A stretch of 64,000 nucleotides of DNA, taken from assembly GCF_000337775.1 (NCBI RefSeq), contig NZ_AOLQ01000065.1, positions 124,001-188,000 of the forward strand, given 5' to 3'. Both the position numbers and the translations under genes were made by a program. Below are positions 4,931 to 45,780 of this stretch, one piece after another (the stretch's first letter is position 1; each line of letters opens with the position of its first letter). The DNA is from Haloarcula vallismortis ATCC 29715. GTDB lineage: Archaea; Halobacteriota; Halobacteria; Halobacteriales; Haloarculaceae. The notes under the pieces were generated by a model that worked only from the letters and a program-made list of their open reading frames with translations, searched no databases and was not told where the DNA came from.

Positions 4931-5281
4931 TCAGTCCTCGTAGGCGAGGGTCATGACCCACTGCGAGAACGTGTCGTCGTGGGGGTCGACTTCTTCGTCG
5001 CCGATGAACGGCGAGAGCTGGTCCCCGGCCATCAGGAGCGAGAAGTCGAGGTCGCGGGCTGCGGGCGTCAGGTAGTACGTGTTATGGCCCTCGTACACAG
5101 TCTCCTCGCGCTGGATGAGGTCCTTCTCGAACAGAGACTCGACGATGCGACTTCCCTTCCGCGAGGAAACGTCGAGTTCCTTCCAGAAGTCGCTCTGGTG
5201 GATGCCACCGGACTCACGAATCAGTTCGAGCCCGGCCCGCTCGCCGTCAGAAAGGTCCGCCTCCGACGCTGCTGAACTCAT
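4931..5281 (-). CDS. Winged-helix transcriptional regulator
   Basis: 116 aa. Residues about 14-75 read as a winged helix-turn-helix (ELIRESGGIHQSDFWKELDVSSRKGSRIVESL, then a wing with YYLTPA), as in MarR/Lrp-like haloarchaeal regulators. The C-terminal 40 residues have no known ligand domain. It lies among menaquinone genes, between menB and the menA-C-E operon, and shares its strand with the NRDE gene 27 bases upstream. Control of the men genes is possible but only by position. Confidence 0.8.
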   Translation of the reverse strand: MSSAASEADLSDGERAGLELIRESGGIHQSDFWKELDVSSRKGSRIVESLFEKDLIQREETVYEGHNTYYLTPAARDLDFSLLMAGDQLSPFIGDEEVDPHDDTFSQWVMTLAYED

Positions 5282-38150: not shown

Positions 38151-38228
38151 GTGACTGTGTAACACTGGGGCTGGTAAAACGGTACCCCCGCAATTAGCAG
38201 GTCGGCTGCGGAACCCACCCGAATCTTT

Positions 38229-39371
38229 ATGCAGCCGTCAACCGACACCGCGAGTGTGGTTTACGAGACGGGCAACCAAACGGTAGACGACGCCGTCACG
38301 CGCGTGCTGGACGGCGAGCGCCTCGACCGACGGGACGGACTGGCGCTTATCGCACAGCCAGTCGACGACCTGGCAGCCGGGGCCGACTACGTGCGCACGC
38401 AACTGGGTGACGACACCGTCGACGCGTGTTCGATCGTAAACGCCAAAGCCGGGAACTGCGCGGAGGACTGTGGCTTCTGTGCCCAGTCGGTCCACTTCGA
38501 CACCGGCATCGACAACTACGGCTTTCTCGGCCCGGAGAAGATACTGGAGGCCGCAAAACGCGCCGAACGCGACGGCGCACAGCGGTTCGGTATCGTCGTC
38601 GCCGAGAAAGGCGTCTCGAAGGAGAACCGCCCCGAGGAGTGGGCGGAAGTCCTCGAAGCCATCCGCCTCGTCCGCGACGAGACGGACGTGGAGGTCGACG
38701 CCAGCCTCGGTATCCTGACAGAAGAGGAGGCCGCAATTCTGGCCGAGGAGGGTCTCAACCATTACAATCACAACATCGAGACCTCCCCGCGATACTTCCC
38801 GGAGGTCGTCCAGACCCACACGTTCGAAAAGCGGGTCGAGACGCTCCGGGTCGCCAAAGAGGCCGGTATGGACCTCTGTGCCGGCGTCATTCTGGGGATG
38901 GGAGAATCGCCGACTGACAGGGTTGATGCGGCGATGGCCCTGCAGGACATCGGTATCTCCTCGCTGCCGGTCAACATCCTGAACCCGGTCGCTGGGACTC
39001 CCATGGCCGAACAGGGGCTGCCCGACATCACGACCGAGGAAGTCGTGAAGACCATCGCGGTGTACCGCCTGCTCCATCCCGAGTCCCGCGTGCGCCTGAC
39101 CGGCGGCCGCGAGGTCAATCTCGACACGGACGGACAGGTGGCCGCGCTGGAGGCCGGCGCGGACGGCATCCTCACTGGTGATTACCTCACTACCGAGGGA
39201 CAGACGGCGGCCGACGACCTCGAAATCATGGAGGAGGCCGGGCTCGAACCGAACACCGAGGCGAACGAGTTCGACCCCGAGGCGGTCAAAGAACGCGCGG
39301 CCGACGAGACAGAGACCGAGACGGCAGCAGGGACAGCACAGACCAAATCAGAACTCAAATCCGACGACTGA
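38229..39371 (+). CDS. bioB: Biotin synthase
   Basis: 380 aa radical SAM enzyme that inserts sulfur into dethiobiotin. The 4Fe-4S motif is Cys77, Cys81, Cys84 in GNCAEDCGFCAQS, followed by YNHNIETSP, LCAGVILGMGE, LPVNILNPVAGTP and RLTGGRE, which includes the Arg ligand of the 2Fe-2S cluster. A 60-residue acidic tail is extra. It leads the operon bioB-X-bioF-bioD; the next gene begins 3 bases after its stop. Confidence 0.96.
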   Translation: MQPSTDTASVVYETGNQTVDDAVTRVLDGERLDRRDGLALIAQPVDDLAAGADYVRTQLGDDTVDACSIVNAKAGNCAEDCGFCAQSVHFDTGIDNYGFLGPEKILEAAKRAERDGAQRFGIVVAEKGVSKENRPEEWAEVLEAIRLVRDETDVEVDASLGILTEEEAAILAEEGLNHYNHNIETSPRYFPEVVQTHTFEKRVETLRVAKEAGMDLCAGVILGMGESPTDRVDAAMALQDIGISSLPVNILNPVAGTPMAEQGLPDITTEEVVKTIAVYRLLHPESRVRLTGGREVNLDTDGQVAALEAGADGILTGDYLTTEGQTAADDLEIMEEAGLEPNTEANEFDPEAVKERAADETETETAAGTAQTKSELKSDD

Positions 39372-39373
39372 CA

Positions 39374-40453
39374 ATGGACGACATACGCTTTGCAGTGCTT
39401 GGAACCGGTGGTATCGGACGGCGGACGCTCGAAGTCTCACAGCACAAGGACGGCCTCACTGCCGTCGCGGCCTGTGACCGCAACGGCGTGGCCATCGACC
39501 ACGGCGGCCTCGACGTGGACGAACTGCTGGCGGCGACGGAAGGCAACATCGCGAGCGGGCCGCAAGATGACGGCCCTGGCGACGTTGCGACCGACGGCGG
39601 TGCAGCTGCCGCCAAAGCCGACGGGGTCAAACAGCACGGCGACCAGTCCGGTATCGTCGCCAGCGAACAGGGCGAGCCGACGGAGACGCCTATCGACGAT
39701 ATCATCACCGAGAGCGACGCTATCGACGCCGTGCTGCTGGCGCTGCCGAACCTCGAACACGACTTCATCCCACGCGTTGCCGAGCGCTTCGCGGAAGCCG
39801 ACTACGAGGGCGTGATGATCGACGTGCTCAAGCGCTCACGCGTCATCGGCATGCTTGACGACCGCGAGGACCTCTTGAAGGAATCCGGCATCACGTTCGT
39901 CTGCGGTGCCGGCGCGACGCCCGGCTTCCTGACCGGCGCGGCCGCGCTCGCTGCCCAGTCGTTCGTCGAAGTCGAGGAGGTCGAAATCTGGTGGGGCGTC
40001 GGCCTCAAATCGGGCTACGAGGACAACCGCGGCACCGTCCGGGAGGACATCGCCCATCTCGACGGCTACGACATCGAGACGGCCCGGGAGATGAGCGAAG
40101 AGGAAATTGAGGAACTCATCGACGACCACGACGGCGTGCTTGAGTTCCACGACATGGAACACGCCGACGACGTACTCCTCGAACGGGCTGGCATCTGTGA
40201 CGCTGAAAACGTCCACGTCGGCGGCGTCCTCGACGTGCGCTCGGACGAGAAACCGACCACGACCACGGTCAGCGTGACAGGGACGACCTTCGACGGGGAG
40301 ACGGGAACGAACACCTTCGAACTGGACGACGTGACGAGCATGGAGGCAAACGTCAACGGGCCTGCGCTGGGCTATCTGAAAGCCGGTGTCCGCAACAACC
40401 GCGCCGGCCACTACGGCGTGTTCGGCCCTGCCGACCTCATGCCCGGTTTCTGA
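39374..40453 (+). CDS. bioU: BioU-like NAD(P)-binding protein, probable DAPA-forming suicide enzyme
   Basis: 359 aa Rossmann-type protein. FAVLGTGGIGRRTLEV (residues 6-21) binds NAD(P); an acidic, Gly/Ala-rich insertion of about 30 residues covers roughly 60-100; VLLALPNLEHDF and MIDVLKRSRVIGML follow, then CGAGATPGFLTGAAALAAQS. It looks like a saccharopine-dehydrogenase relative. It sits between bioB and bioF where bioA would be expected, and no bioA is in the operon. Cyanobacterial BioU uses a Lys side chain (Lys124) to give its amino group to KAPA; Lys153 here falls at a comparable place once the insertion is removed. BioU is therefore my assignment from context and layout, not proven. Confidence 0.72.
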   Translation: MDDIRFAVLGTGGIGRRTLEVSQHKDGLTAVAACDRNGVAIDHGGLDVDELLAATEGNIASGPQDDGPGDVATDGGAAAAKADGVKQHGDQSGIVASEQGEPTETPIDDIITESDAIDAVLLALPNLEHDFIPRVAERFAEADYEGVMIDVLKRSRVIGMLDDREDLLKESGITFVCGAGATPGFLTGAAALAAQSFVEVEEVEIWWGVGLKSGYEDNRGTVREDIAHLDGYDIETAREMSEEEIEELIDDHDGVLEFHDMEHADDVLLERAGICDAENVHVGGVLDVRSDEKPTTTTVSVTGTTFDGETGTNTFELDDVTSMEANVNGPALGYLKAGVRNNRAGHYGVFGPADLMPGF

Positions 40454-40473
40454 GACAGCCTGACCCTTTTTTT

Positions 40474-41676
40474 ATGACTCATGGCTTCGACTTGAGCGAC
40501 CGACTCGAACAGCGCGAGGCACAGAACCTCCGCCGGCATCTGGAGGTCGCCGAATCCGTCTCGGCGCGGACCCGCTTCGCCGACGACCCGAAAGGCGGTT
40601 CGCCGGAGTTCGGCGACGGCGCAGTCGTCTTCGCCGCGAACAACTACCTCGGACTGGCCGGCGACAGCCGGGTCCAGCGAGCGGCCGAACTGGGCGCACG
40701 GACCGTCGGGACCGGTGCAGGGGCCTCACGGCTGGTCACTGGTGACACGCAGGTCCACCGCGGGCTGGAGCGCGACCTCGCAGCCTCGAAAGGGACCGAG
40801 CGAGCGCTGGTGTTCTCGTCGGGCTATGCGGCCAATATCGGAACCATCGACGCGCTGGCTCCGGATGTCGTCTTCTCAGACGAACTGAACCACGCCTCGA
40901 TTATCGACGGCTGCCGGGTCGGGGCGAGCGAGACGGTTGTGTACGACCACTGCGACCCTGACGATTTACGGGCGAAGATGGACGCACGAGCGGCTGACGC
41001 CGACGAGGACGAACAGTGGCTCGTCGTCACCGACTCCGTCTTTTCCATGGATGGGGACATCGCACCGCTGGGGTCCATCTGTGACGTGGTCGAGCAGTAC
41101 GGTGCGTGGCTGATGGTCGACGAGGCACACGCAACAGGACTGTTCGGCGATAGTGGCGGTGGCGTCGTCCAGCGCGACGGGCTAAGTGACCGTGTCGACG
41201 TGCAGCTGGGCACCCTCTCGAAGGCGCTGGCGAGCCAGGGCGGCTACATCGCTGGCGACGAGGTACTTGTGGAGTACCTTCTGAATGCCGCGCGGTCGTT
41301 CGTCTTCTCGACCGGGCTATCCCCACCGAACGCCGCGGTGGCCCGCGAGGCGCTGCGAATCGCCCGGGAGACCGACCGCGCGGCGGAACTCTGGGACACC
41401 GTGGCCACGCTCCGGGACGGCCTGGAGACTATGGGCTATGAGGTGCTTGGCGAGACACATATCCTCCCGGTCGTCGTCGGTGACCGCGGCGACGCGCTGG
41501 AACTGGCCGACCGCCTGCGTGAGCACGGTATCGTTGCCCCTGCGATTCGGCCGCCGACGGTGCCAGAGGGGACTTCTCGTATCCGGGTCGCGCCGATGGC
41601 GACACACACCGCCGACGATATCGCGCAGTGTCTCGACGCGTTCCGAACTGCTGGCATAGAGGTGGGTGTGCTGTGA
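40474..41676 (+). CDS. bioF: 8-amino-7-oxononanoate synthase
   Basis: 400 aa PLP enzyme of the alpha-oxoamine synthase family that condenses a pimeloyl thioester with alanine. NNYLGLAGDSRVQ, GTGAGASRLVTGDTQVHRGLE, FSSGYAANIGTI, DELNHASIIDGCR, VTDSVFSMDGDIAPL, VDEAHATGLFG and the PLP Lys region GTLSKALASQGGY are intact. A run of seven T lies directly before the start, in the 20-base gap after the BioU-like gene. Confidence 0.95.
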   Translation: MTHGFDLSDRLEQREAQNLRRHLEVAESVSARTRFADDPKGGSPEFGDGAVVFAANNYLGLAGDSRVQRAAELGARTVGTGAGASRLVTGDTQVHRGLERDLAASKGTERALVFSSGYAANIGTIDALAPDVVFSDELNHASIIDGCRVGASETVVYDHCDPDDLRAKMDARAADADEDEQWLVVTDSVFSMDGDIAPLGSICDVVEQYGAWLMVDEAHATGLFGDSGGGVVQRDGLSDRVDVQLGTLSKALASQGGYIAGDEVLVEYLLNAARSFVFSTGLSPPNAAVAREALRIARETDRAAELWDTVATLRDGLETMGYEVLGETHILPVVVGDRGDALELADRLREHGIVAPAIRPPTVPEGTSRIRVAPMATHTADDIAQCLDAFRTAGIEVGVL

Positions 41677-42407
41677 GCGATAGGGCGGCAGACTCGGAAC
41701 CTGAGCACGGGACCGGCCACATTGCAGATGAGGGCGTCTTCGTCGTCGGGACCGATACCGGCGTCGGCAAGACAGTCGTGACTGCCGGACTGACGGGCTG
41801 GCTGCGGGATATGGAAACGGACGCGGTCGCCGTCAAGCCCTGCCAGACCGGGTATCCGCCGGACGACGACGCGGCGTTCGTCGAGTCCATCTGTGGGACC
41901 GCAGACGCTGCAGTCTGTCTGGAGCGGTTGTCACCACCACTGGCACCGGAAGTGGCTGCGAGAGAAGCAGATGACGATGTCACGCTTTCCTACGAGTCGA
42001 TTCGCGACGGGGTCGCTGATGTCGTTGCCGGGCGCGAGACAGCTGTCGTCGAGGGCATCGGCGGTCTGCGTGTCCCGCTGGCAGACGGTCGAGAGGTCAT
42101 TGACCTCGTTGCAGATGTCGGGCTTCCCGCGCTGGTCGTCGCTCGTTCGGGGCTTGGAACGCTCAATCACACCGCGCTGACAGTGCAGACGCTCCGCCAG
42201 AGAGGCGTGCCAGTCGTCGGCGTCGTTCTCAACGAGTACGAGGGCGCGACGACCGCAGAGCGCACGAACCCGGACAGTATCGAACGGATGACTGGGTCCT
42301 CTGTCTGGCCAGTTCCACCACTTGATATCGAATCGCCAGACGGCGTGATTGACGGCCTCAGAGCGGATCTCCCGCAGTCGGTATTACGGCCGGCTATCGA
42401 TCAGTAA
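41673..42407 (+). CDS. bioD: Dethiobiotin synthetase
   Basis: 244 aa ATP-dependent carboxylase that closes the ureido ring. P-loop FVVGTDTGVGKTVV, the substrate loop KPCQTG, LSPPLAPEVAA and VEGIGGLRVPL match the family. The GTG start at 41673 overlaps the bioF stop (GTGA). Last gene of the biotin operon, followed by hairpins. Confidence 0.94.
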   Translation: MSDRAADSEPEHGTGHIADEGVFVVGTDTGVGKTVVTAGLTGWLRDMETDAVAVKPCQTGYPPDDDAAFVESICGTADAAVCLERLSPPLAPEVAAREADDDVTLSYESIRDGVADVVAGRETAVVEGIGGLRVPLADGREVIDLVADVGLPALVVARSGLGTLNHTALTVQTLRQRGVPVVGVVLNEYEGATTAERTNPDSIERMTGSSVWPVPPLDIESPDGVIDGLRADLPQSVLRPAIDQ

Positions 42408-42601: not shown

Positions 42602-43678
42602 CTACAGATCGATCGACAGCAGCGTTTCGATGTCGACACCGTCGTCCAGTAGCGACTGCATACGGTCGACCGTTGCCTCGTTACGCGTCTGCCCGGTTCG
42701 GAGCACCTCTTCGACTCTGTCTATCGTCGTTCGCGTGTCCGACTGGACCGACAGCACTGGGACGTTTTTCTCGGCCGCCTGTCCGATGACCGCACTGGGA
42801 GGCTGGAACCCGCCTGTGAGAAGCAGCGCCTTGATACCGGACGCTTCGAGTGCCGCGGTCTGGACCTCCGAGCGGTCGCCGCCGGTGACGACGACGGCAT
42901 CGCGCGTCCGCCGGAAGCGTTCGAGCGCGCTGCTTCCGCTCATCGCACCGACGCTGAACCGCTCGACGTGGACGTCGGTGTTGGCATCGCCAGTGAGGAT
43001 GTCCGCGCCGAGGTTCCGGGCGAGGTCGGCAACGGTGACACCGGCGAGTGAGCGGTCACGGGGCAGGATTCCGTGGACCGGGATTCCCTCGCCTTCGAGG
43101 AACGGAACCACGTCGTCGGCGAGTTCGTCCACTGTCGCATCGGTGACGCCGTTGAACAGGACGCCGTCCAGTCGGTCGCCGATTGCCCGGGCCGCTGACA
43201 GAATTTCGTCCGTATCACTGGGCGTATCGTAGCCAGTGACTAACAGCACGCGGGCGTCGAGCAGTTCAGCGATATCGATGTCCGTGAGGTCGACGATACT
43301 CCCAGTCGTCAGGTCGCTGCTCCCCTCGACAAGGAGCAGGTCGGTCCCGTCCGAACACGTCTCGATGCCCTCCTGCAGTCGCTCACGGAGCTCGGCCGGG
43401 TCCTCACGCCCGCGAATGGCTTCTTGGATGAACGTCGGCGAGTAGACGATGGGCTCCATATCGTGGAGGTCGGTCTCCAGATCGAGCAGTTCGCGGGCGA
43501 GCATCGGGTCCTCGTCCCGCGTCTTGCCGACCGCGCTTCGCAGACGCGTCCCCTTGGGCTTCATGTAGCCGACGTCGTAGCCCGCGTCGTGGGCACGCGT
43601 CGCTAGCGCGAGCGTGATAGCCGTCTTGCCGATACCTTCTTCCAGTGACGTGACGAGTAGCGTGTTCGTGTCGGTCAT
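42602..43678 (-). CDS. BioD-like/DRTGG-domain protein (phosphotransacetylase-family N-terminus)
   Basis: 358 aa. The N-terminal half is a P-loop BioD-like domain (VTSLEEGIGKTAITLALA, GYMKPKGTRLR, LLLVEGSSDLTTG); the C-terminal half is a DRTGG domain. The same two domains stand before the catalytic domain in long bacterial Pta, but that catalytic domain is absent here, so phosphotransacetylase activity is not expected. Its start overlaps the end of the ADP-forming acyl-CoA synthetase gene by 4 bases, suggesting a regulatory or accessory role. Confidence 0.87.
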   Translation of the reverse strand: MTDTNTLLVTSLEEGIGKTAITLALATRAHDAGYDVGYMKPKGTRLRSAVGKTRDEDPMLARELLDLETDLHDMEPIVYSPTFIQEAIRGREDPAELRERLQEGIETCSDGTDLLLVEGSSDLTTGSIVDLTDIDIAELLDARVLLVTGYDTPSDTDEILSAARAIGDRLDGVLFNGVTDATVDELADDVVPFLEGEGIPVHGILPRDRSLAGVTVADLARNLGADILTGDANTDVHVERFSVGAMSGSSALERFRRTRDAVVVTGGDRSEVQTAALEASGIKALLLTGGFQPPSAVIGQAAEKNVPVLSVQSDTRTTIDRVEEVLRTGQTRNEATVDRMQSLLDDGVDIETLLSIDL

Positions 43679-45780
43679 AGTTTCTCCTGATCGAGGGTGA
43701 GCCGCAGGTCGACCGCCTGTACCCCGTCGGGCGTCGCGACGAGGGGGTTGATGTCCAGTTCGACGATAGCGGGGAAGTCAGTGACGAGTTGCGAGAGCCG
43801 CTGGATGGTCTCGACGAGCGTGGCTTCGTCGACGGGGTCGCGGCCACGGGCACCGCGCAGCAGCGGTGCAGAGTCGATGTCATCGAGCATCCCCTTCGCC
43901 TCGTTCTCGCTGACGGGGGCGACACTGACAGTGTTGTCTTCGAGCACCTCGACGAAAATACCGCCGAGGCCGAACAACAGCAACGGCCCGAACTGTGGGT
44001 CGCGGTTCATTCCGAGAATCGTCTCGACGCCGTTGTCGAGGTCGACCATCTCCTGAACCTGGACGCCGAGAATCGTCGCGTCCTCCTGATAGTTCCGCGC
44101 CCTGACGACGAGGTCCTCGTAGGTGTCACGGACCTCTTCGACCGGGACACCGACCTCGACGCCGCCGATGTCTGACTTGTGCAGGATATCCGGACTGACG
44201 ATTTTCATCACCACGTCGTCGCCGATATCCTCGGCGATAGCCTCCGCTTCGACGGGTGAGGAGACCACATCGCCCTGTGGCGTCGGAATCCCGTACGCGT
44301 CGAGCAGTTCCATCGCTTCAACGCCGAGTCGGTTCGACCCGCGTCGGGCACCGGATTCAAGTATCTCACGGGCCCGCTCGCGGTCCACGTCGAAGGTCGT
44401 CGGCTCCTCGTACTCGGTTGCCCTGATCTCGCGATAACGCCTGAGAGCGTCCAGACTCCCAACGGCGCGGGCCGGGTCGAAGTAGTTCGGCACGCCCGCT
44501 TCGCTCAGGACGTTCGCACCGGCATCGACCGACTTCCCGCCCATCAGCGTCGCCGCGACGGGTTTCCCGAATCGCTCCTGCTGTTCAACGACGCTCTCTG
44601 CGAGTTCCTCGAAGGAAAGCACTGCCGTCGGGCAGGCGACGACGACAGCCATCGAGACGCTGTCGTCCGCCAATACGGTCTCAAGCGCCGTTTCGAAGCG
44701 CTCCGCTGGCGCGTCGCCGATGATGTCGACCGGGTTGTAGATGTTGGCCTCGTCGGGCATCTCTTCGCGGAGCCGGGAGAACGTCTCGTCGCCGAACTGG
44801 GCGAGTTGCAGGTCAGAGTCGCCGACGGCGTCGGTCGTCATCACGCCGGGGCCACCGGCGTTCGTGACGATAGCAATCTCGTCGCCGTCCGGGAGCGGCT
44901 GGCCGGCGAGAATCTGCGCGTAGTCGAACAGTTCTTGAACGGACTCGACCCGGAGCGTCCCGGCCTTGTCGAGGCCCGCCTCGTAGGCCCGCTCGGAGCC
45001 GGCCATCGCACCGGTGTGGGAGGCCGCCGCACTCGCACCCGCGTCTGTGCGGCCGGATTTGACGAGCACGATGGGTGTGTCCTGTGTTACCTCCCGGGCG
45101 GTCTGGACGAACGACGACCCGTCGCCGATGTCCTCCAAGTAGCCCAGAATCACGTCGGTATCGGGGTCGTCGCCCCACTCGGCGACGAAGTCGCTCTCGT
45201 CCAGCACCGCCTTGTTCCCGAGCGAGACGATGTCCTTGAAGCCGACATCGCGCTCGGCGGCCCAGTCCAGCACGGCGGTGATGAACGCGCCCGACTGGCT
45301 CATAAAGGAGATGTCGCCGTCGCTGGCCATCTCGTTGCCGAAGGTGGCGTTGAGCCCGACGGGCGTCGACATCACGCCGAGGCTGTTCGGGCCGACCAGA
45401 TTCAGGTCGTACTCGCTGGCCGCCTCGCGGAGCCGTCGCTCGCGTTCGGCCCCGTCGCTGCCGGTCTCACCGAACCCGGCGGTGATGACCACAACGTTCT
45501 CGATACCCGCTTCCCCTGCGTTTTCGATAACGTCGACCGCCACTGTCGGCGGTACGACGACAACGGCCACATCGATGGACGCAGGGTCTTCTATGGCGGC
45601 GAGGTTGTCGTAACACGGCAATCCATGTACTGTCTCTTTGTTCGGGTTCACGGCCAGAACCTCCCCTGTGAAGGAGTCGAGCAGGTTCGTGGTGACCGCG
45701 TGACCGACGGATCCCTCCGAATCGGTCGCCCCGACCACTGCGACACGTTCCGGCGCAAACAACGTCGATAATCGTCCCAT
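43675..45780 (-). CDS. acd: Acetate-CoA ligase (ADP-forming), fused alpha-beta
   Basis: 701 aa NDP-forming acyl-CoA synthetase that makes ATP from acetyl-CoA, ADP and phosphate. The CoA-binding domain comes first (VGATDSEGSVGHAV), then LVGPNSLGVM, SQSGAF and VLVKSGRTDAGASAAASHTGAMAGS, with the phospho-His in ASHTGA. The ATP-grasp beta part starts near residue 475 (MELLDAYGIPTPQGDVV, VMKIVSPDILHKSDIGGV). Used in archaea for acetate formation during overflow metabolism. Upstream gap of 132 bases holds its promoter. Confidence 0.93.
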   Translation of the reverse strand: MGRLSTLFAPERVAVVGATDSEGSVGHAVTTNLLDSFTGEVLAVNPNKETVHGLPCYDNLAAIEDPASIDVAVVVVPPTVAVDVIENAGEAGIENVVVITAGFGETGSDGAERERRLREAASEYDLNLVGPNSLGVMSTPVGLNATFGNEMASDGDISFMSQSGAFITAVLDWAAERDVGFKDIVSLGNKAVLDESDFVAEWGDDPDTDVILGYLEDIGDGSSFVQTAREVTQDTPIVLVKSGRTDAGASAAASHTGAMAGSERAYEAGLDKAGTLRVESVQELFDYAQILAGQPLPDGDEIAIVTNAGGPGVMTTDAVGDSDLQLAQFGDETFSRLREEMPDEANIYNPVDIIGDAPAERFETALETVLADDSVSMAVVVACPTAVLSFEELAESVVEQQERFGKPVAATLMGGKSVDAGANVLSEAGVPNYFDPARAVGSLDALRRYREIRATEYEEPTTFDVDRERAREILESGARRGSNRLGVEAMELLDAYGIPTPQGDVVSSPVEAEAIAEDIGDDVVMKIVSPDILHKSDIGGVEVGVPVEEVRDTYEDLVVRARNYQEDATILGVQVQEMVDLDNGVETILGMNRDPQFGPLLLFGLGGIFVEVLEDNTVSVAPVSENEAKGMLDDIDSAPLLRGARGRDPVDEATLVETIQRLSQLVTDFPAIVELDINPLVATPDGVQAVDLRLTLDQEKL

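Follow-up and report, generated by a model that had tools for sequence, protein, structure and literature searches.

Organization of the biotin gene cluster

The window considered here is the whole stretch of DNA that was analysed (64,000 nucleotides), and the genome that carries it is 3.9 Mb in size and 99.8% complete. Four genes, bioB, bioU, bioF and bioD, lie tightly spaced on the same strand of the window, between positions 38229 and 42407. These genes and the features discussed below are as follows.

38220..38230, + strand: CGAATCTTTAT, probable BRE/TATA element of the operon promoter (from aligned upstream regions of approximately 75 haloarchaeal loci)
38229..39371, + strand: bioB, biotin synthase (TIGR00433, 344 bits, cut-off 225; GTG at 38256, giving MVYETGN..., a likelier start than ATG at 38229)
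39374..40453, + strand: bioU, 359 aa, orthologue of Slr0355 that very probably replaces bioA (phmmer, Foldseek, NF047886 E value 1.8e-98)
39401..39418, + strand: Rossmann motif GTGGIG, residues 10–15 of BioU (translation)
39545..39643, + strand: length-variable, probably disordered linker, residues 58–90 of BioU (pLDDT under 50; length comparison)
39830..39832, + strand: codon of Lys153, equivalent to the sacrificial Lys124 (from the alignment with Slr0355 and its K124A chain, 6itd)
40160..40162, + strand: codon of His263, equivalent to His233 (from the alignment with 6k38, the H233A protein conjugated with DAPA)
40474..41676, + strand: bioF, 8-amino-7-oxononanoate synthase (TIGR00858 the best match, 408 bits, just below the cut-off of 426)
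41673..42407, + strand: bioD, dethiobiotin synthase (TIGR00347, 119 bits, cut-off 83; start read from the sequence)

The family models bear out the gene order given in a preliminary description of this DNA (bioB, an NAD(P)-binding protein, bioF, bioD), as well as the tight packing reported there. The bioB and bioU genes are separated by 2 bp and bioU and bioF by 20 bp, while bioF and bioD overlap by 4 bp, provided that bioD begins with the GTG at 41673.

When the upstream regions of the haloarchaeal loci were aligned, CGAA/CACAA followed by TTTAT/TTATA was found at the promoter position, often without an ATG. Because the bioB ATG at 38229 falls within this conserved TATA-like element, and because bioB of a relative (locus L140) begins MVYETGN, the GTG at 38256 appears to be the more likely start; translation from that codon would probably mean a nearly leaderless transcript. 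A run of T residues just 5′ of the bioF ATG was considered as a terminator that would yield more bioB/bioU than bioF/bioD, and was rejected, as it is kept in only a few Haloarcula. In Natrialbaceae loci (e.g. L028, L031 and L080), the gap between bioU and bioF is 95–190 bp and ends, directly 5′ of bioF, in a conserved block, GAACCGTGAGAGTSAAACC..., which is missing from other families and is possibly a second promoter or a regulatory site.

Identification of the second gene as bioU

The product of the second gene was compared with the PDB using phmmer. The match to Slr0355, the BioU protein of Synechocystis, had an E value of 2.6e-81, and all other matches were no better than 0.07. The match to Slr0355 falls in two stretches, residues 4–54 and 86–359, with a linker between them, and the two proteins are 44% identical across 321 alignment columns. 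At 101 positions, the residue is the same in Slr0355 and conserved in 97% or more of 111 haloarchaeal sequences. The closest named relative, judged by the BioU protein, is Haloarcula amylolytica (96% identical). The NCBIfam model for BioU, NF047886, gave 329.6 bits (E value 1.8e-98), which is below its curated cut-off of 600 bits, a threshold for the naming of annotated proteins and not a biological feature of BioU. The best haloarchaeal score was 349 bits, so that every copy found falls under that cut-off.

An AlphaFold model of the protein was built from 47 haloarchaeal sequences (mean pLDDT 82) and searched against the PDB using Foldseek. The five top matches are the five Slr0355 entries (6itd, 6k37, 6ir4, 6k38 and 6k36), all with a TM score of 0.93, normalized by target length, and an rmsd of 2.1–2.3 Å. 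Below these come diaminopimelate and amino-acid dehydrogenases, with TM scores of approximately 0.5 and rmsd values above 10 Å. The predicted fold therefore matches that of BioU, and for a modelled structure the match is decisive. Taken with the sequence comparisons, it indicates that the product of 39374..40453 is the haloarchaeal orthologue of Slr0355, very probably standing in for BioA.

Conserved residues and the variable linker

The preliminary description had pointed to a GTGGIG Rossmann start and to Lys153 within IDVLKRSR, near the position of Lys124 of Slr0355. Both are present in the translation, and the alignment with Slr0355 places Lys153 exactly opposite Lys124; in 6itd, the deposited chain with the K124A change, an alanine is found there. 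Within the Rossmann motif, G10, G12, G13 and G15 are invariant in 47 sequences. Lysine occupies the 153/124 position in all 112 of the sequences compared (110 haloarchaeal copies, that of the window and Slr0355), as does histidine the 263/233 position. Thus, the residues that were mutated in the Slr0355 PDB entries (Lys124 and His233) are all retained.

The preliminary description had also noted an acidic insertion of 30 residues next to the active region. An insertion is indeed present, and between fixed flanks the window BioU is 33 residues longer than Slr0355 (55 and 22 residues, respectively). It is not especially acidic, however: residues 58–90 are rich in G, A, S and T, with D and E accounting for 17% of them vs 21% of the whole protein. 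Nor is it next to Lys153 in the sequence, from which it is separated by more than 60 residues on the N-terminal side. With a pLDDT below 50 in the predicted model, residues 58–90 are probably a disordered linker of variable length, present in all of the homologues but three. Those three are deep-branching (L005, L013 and L113) and have 23–28 residues between the same flanks, compared with 37–87 in all of the others. The linker would most simply have been gained after the deepest lineages branched off, and the clade that bears it has an SH-aLRT support of 100.

Absence of bioA and the state of the pathway

The whole genome was searched for bioA using the TIGR00508 model, and no protein scored above the cut-off of 405 bits. 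Three proteins matched at 215, 147 and 115 bits, all far under the cut-off. They are an aminotransferase of the ArgD/LysJ type encoded beside argB, an acetylornithine-type aminotransferase encoded beside a gene of the agmatinase/arginase family, and HemL. The lack of bioA that had been remarked upon at the operon thus extends to the rest of the genome. Across the class, bioA exceeded the cut-off in 0 of 294 Halobacteria genomes, and 6 of 14 control genomes were positive. This count agrees with a 2018 survey of 31 Halobacteria, in which bioA was found in none, bioF in 18, bioD in 14 and bioB in 19 (PMC6138646).

As for the supply of pimeloyl-CoA to BioF, bioW is absent, and the complete biotin pathway is for that reason putative. 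Genes for a biotin ligase and an importer of the BioY type are present in the genome, and the demand for biotin may therefore be met in part by uptake. On the opposite strand, 3′ of bioD (42602–45780 of the window), are genes for an AAA_26/DRTGG protein and an ADP-forming acyl-CoA ligase, and to link this pair to pimelate activation is only a guess. Flanking genes were considered as a source of pimeloyl-CoA and set aside, as the acyl-CoA ligase and DRTGG genes occur at just 17–18 of 80 loci, on one side of the class; clustering of the flanks was swamped by antisense ORFs of the GC-rich DNA.

Distribution of BioU among the Halobacteria

The protein had seemed at first to be a peculiarity of a single species, and it proved to be widespread. 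Strong BioU matches were obtained in 109 of the 294 Halobacteria genomes, as compared with 130 for bioB over its cut-off and 109 for bioD. BioU and bioD are found together in 108 genomes, each is found alone in one, and 184 have neither; the figure of 108 is raised by the sharing of operons and by common ancestry, and does not stand for as many independent events. Both exceptions to the pairing trace to contig ends: bioD runs off the end of a contig in one genome (G186), and in the other (G228) it is situated at a contig edge, adjoining a cut bioF. In three genomes of a single genus (G056, G087 and G273), bioD is not linked to bioU, and both genes are nevertheless retained. Of the 80 named loci, 78 have bioB 5′ of bioU, and 73 have the complete set of four genes in order.

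BioU genes were found on chromosomes and megaplasmids. In a thinner sample of the phylum, strong matches were confined to the order to which the window belongs. Slr0355 was used as the outgroup for a tree, and its branch is far too long for the tree to show whether cyanobacteria or haloarchaea were the donor in any transfer between them.

Several loci depart from the usual arrangement. In one genome (G096), bioB is split across two frames, with an N within the stretch. In four genomes, G243 (locus L140), G033 (locus L141), G182 and G216, bioB adjoins bioF, and the two genes for the middle of the pathway, bioU and bioD, are both missing. At L134 (G266), L135 (G150) and L136 (G249), bioU is broken over two or three frames, and the other three genes (bioB, bioF and bioD) are intact; these are either errors of assembly or true pseudogenes, in strains from which the step is being lost. 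Approximately 22 genomes (e.g. G040, G065, G067 and G112) have bioB without BioU or bioD, and most of these are also without a strong bioF match; such organisms perhaps salvage dethiobiotin.

Proposed reaction and alternatives

To our knowledge, the single-use mechanism of BioU has been demonstrated to date only in cyanobacteria. In Slr0355, 8-amino-7-oxononanoate condenses with Lys124 and the product is reduced by NAD(P)H; the conjugate is then carboxylated, and NAD(P)+ releases the carbamate of diaminononanoate, with loss of the lysine nitrogen from the enzyme (PMC12915131, PMC7133116). By analogy, the amine of Lys153 would condense with the ketone of the 8-amino-7-oxononanoate produced by BioF, and reduction of the imine by NAD(P)H would yield a covalent conjugate of enzyme and diaminononanoate. 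Carboxylation of the conjugate (by CO2 or bicarbonate) and oxidation by NAD(P)+ would allow diaminononanoate carbamate to leave with the lysine nitrogen, so that Lys153 would end as an aldehyde (allysine) and BioU would be spent after one product per molecule. BioD would then close the ring, and BioB would insert sulfur. Both the reaction and its single turnover are carried over here from Slr0355. Since the fold, the two residues and the gap in the pathway are the same, the same chemistry is the best explanation, and it is considered highly probable that the haloarchaeal orthologue takes the place of BioA by single-use, lysine-donating chemistry of the Slr0355 kind.

It is unlikely, although conceivable, that the step is instead carried out by a true catalyst, in which Lys153 is regenerated or ammonia or another amine serves as the donor, in the manner of the multi-turnover, Cys-less THI4. 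The Foldseek matches show that related folds include amine and amino-acid dehydrogenases, and multiple-turnover relatives are known for THI4, the other vitamin suicide enzyme (PMC8454699). The catalytic THI4s, however, are without the donor residue, and the donor lysine is present in 110 of 110 haloarchaeal BioU copies, along with all of the residues mutated in the Slr0355 structures. There is a similarly small chance that the mechanism in haloarchaea has diverged from that of cyanobacteria (e.g. by regeneration of Lys153 or by a change to a multi-turnover reductive aminase), and that the linker has a role such as holding BioU close to the other enzymes of the pathway or flagging spent enzyme for degradation.

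Class-III aminotransferases can be promiscuous, and as such enzymes are present in the genome, one of them (the ArgD/LysJ or acetylornithine-type paralogue) might perform the BioA step and leave the BioU-like protein with a different role. This seems very improbable, given that all of them fall far below the bioA cut-off and have clear families or neighbours of their own, while the operon holds BioU and no aminotransferase, and BioU tracks bioD across the class. Equally hard to credit, and if anything harder, is the reading implied by public annotation, that the protein regulates transcription or is a standard NAD(P)-dependent dehydrogenase. Names given in RefSeq (e.g. 'transcriptional regulator') would favour it, as would weak matches to the Rossmann regions of glutamate dehydrogenase and GFO_IDH_MocA, but the E value of the BioU match is better than theirs by over 70 orders of magnitude. 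The fold fits BioU over its whole length, the others reaching only the lower TM scores given above, and a Pfam scan revealed no DNA-binding domain.

Relationship to known enzymes

The haloarchaeal BioU is an archaeal branch of a known kind of enzyme. It resembles Slr0355 of Synechocystis sp. PCC 6803 (6ir4, 6itd, 6k36, 6k37 and 6k38) in sequence (44% identity), in fold (TM 0.93), in the Lys124/Lys153 and His233/His263 pairs and in the lack of bioA. Unlike Slr0355, the window protein is archaeal, is encoded in a bioB-U-F-D operon, is longer by 33 residues within a length-variable and probably disordered linker, and is known here from its sequence and a model. BioA (TIGR00508), an aminotransferase dependent on S-adenosylmethionine or lysine, would be expected to carry out the same step (8-amino-7-oxononanoate to 7,8-diaminononanoate), but it is an unrelated, catalytic PLP enzyme, absent from this genome and over the cut-off in none of the 294.

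Haloarchaea also depend, for thiamine, on a Cys-type THI4 that is thought to be a suicide enzyme (PMC4215014), so that a protein-consuming vitamin enzyme would not be out of character for them. HvThi4 of Haloferax volcanii, an enzyme of this type, is like BioU in being thought to sacrifice an active-site residue (PMC4215014), but it belongs to another family and donates sulfur from cysteine.

No report of BioU in archaea was found in the open-access literature, and earlier mention elsewhere is possible. If the assignment is correct, BioU fills the missing bioA step in about a third of the Halobacteria sampled (109 of 294), the protein-consuming route to biotin extends from cyanobacteria to archaea, and haloarchaea have a second suicide-type vitamin enzyme in addition to THI4. 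Plasmid records give the haloarchaeal homologues the name 'transcriptional regulator' or 'hypothetical protein', and pathway predictions will therefore call these organisms biotin-incomplete. Close relatives of the protein occur in Haloferax (H. larsenii and H. elongans), which makes the BioU step directly testable. In Haloferax mediterranei, HFX_5076 (bioD), 5077 (bioF) and 5079 (bioB) show a joint response under nitrogen starvation when the Lsm protein is deleted (PMC10779274), and we infer that the gap at 5078 is bioU.

Two assemblies have two copies of bioU each, Halorientalis salina (L062 and L067) and Haloterrigena sp. H1 (L109 and L110, which are identical). These may be assembly duplicates, or the second copy possibly raises the dosage of an enzyme that would be consumed in its reaction.
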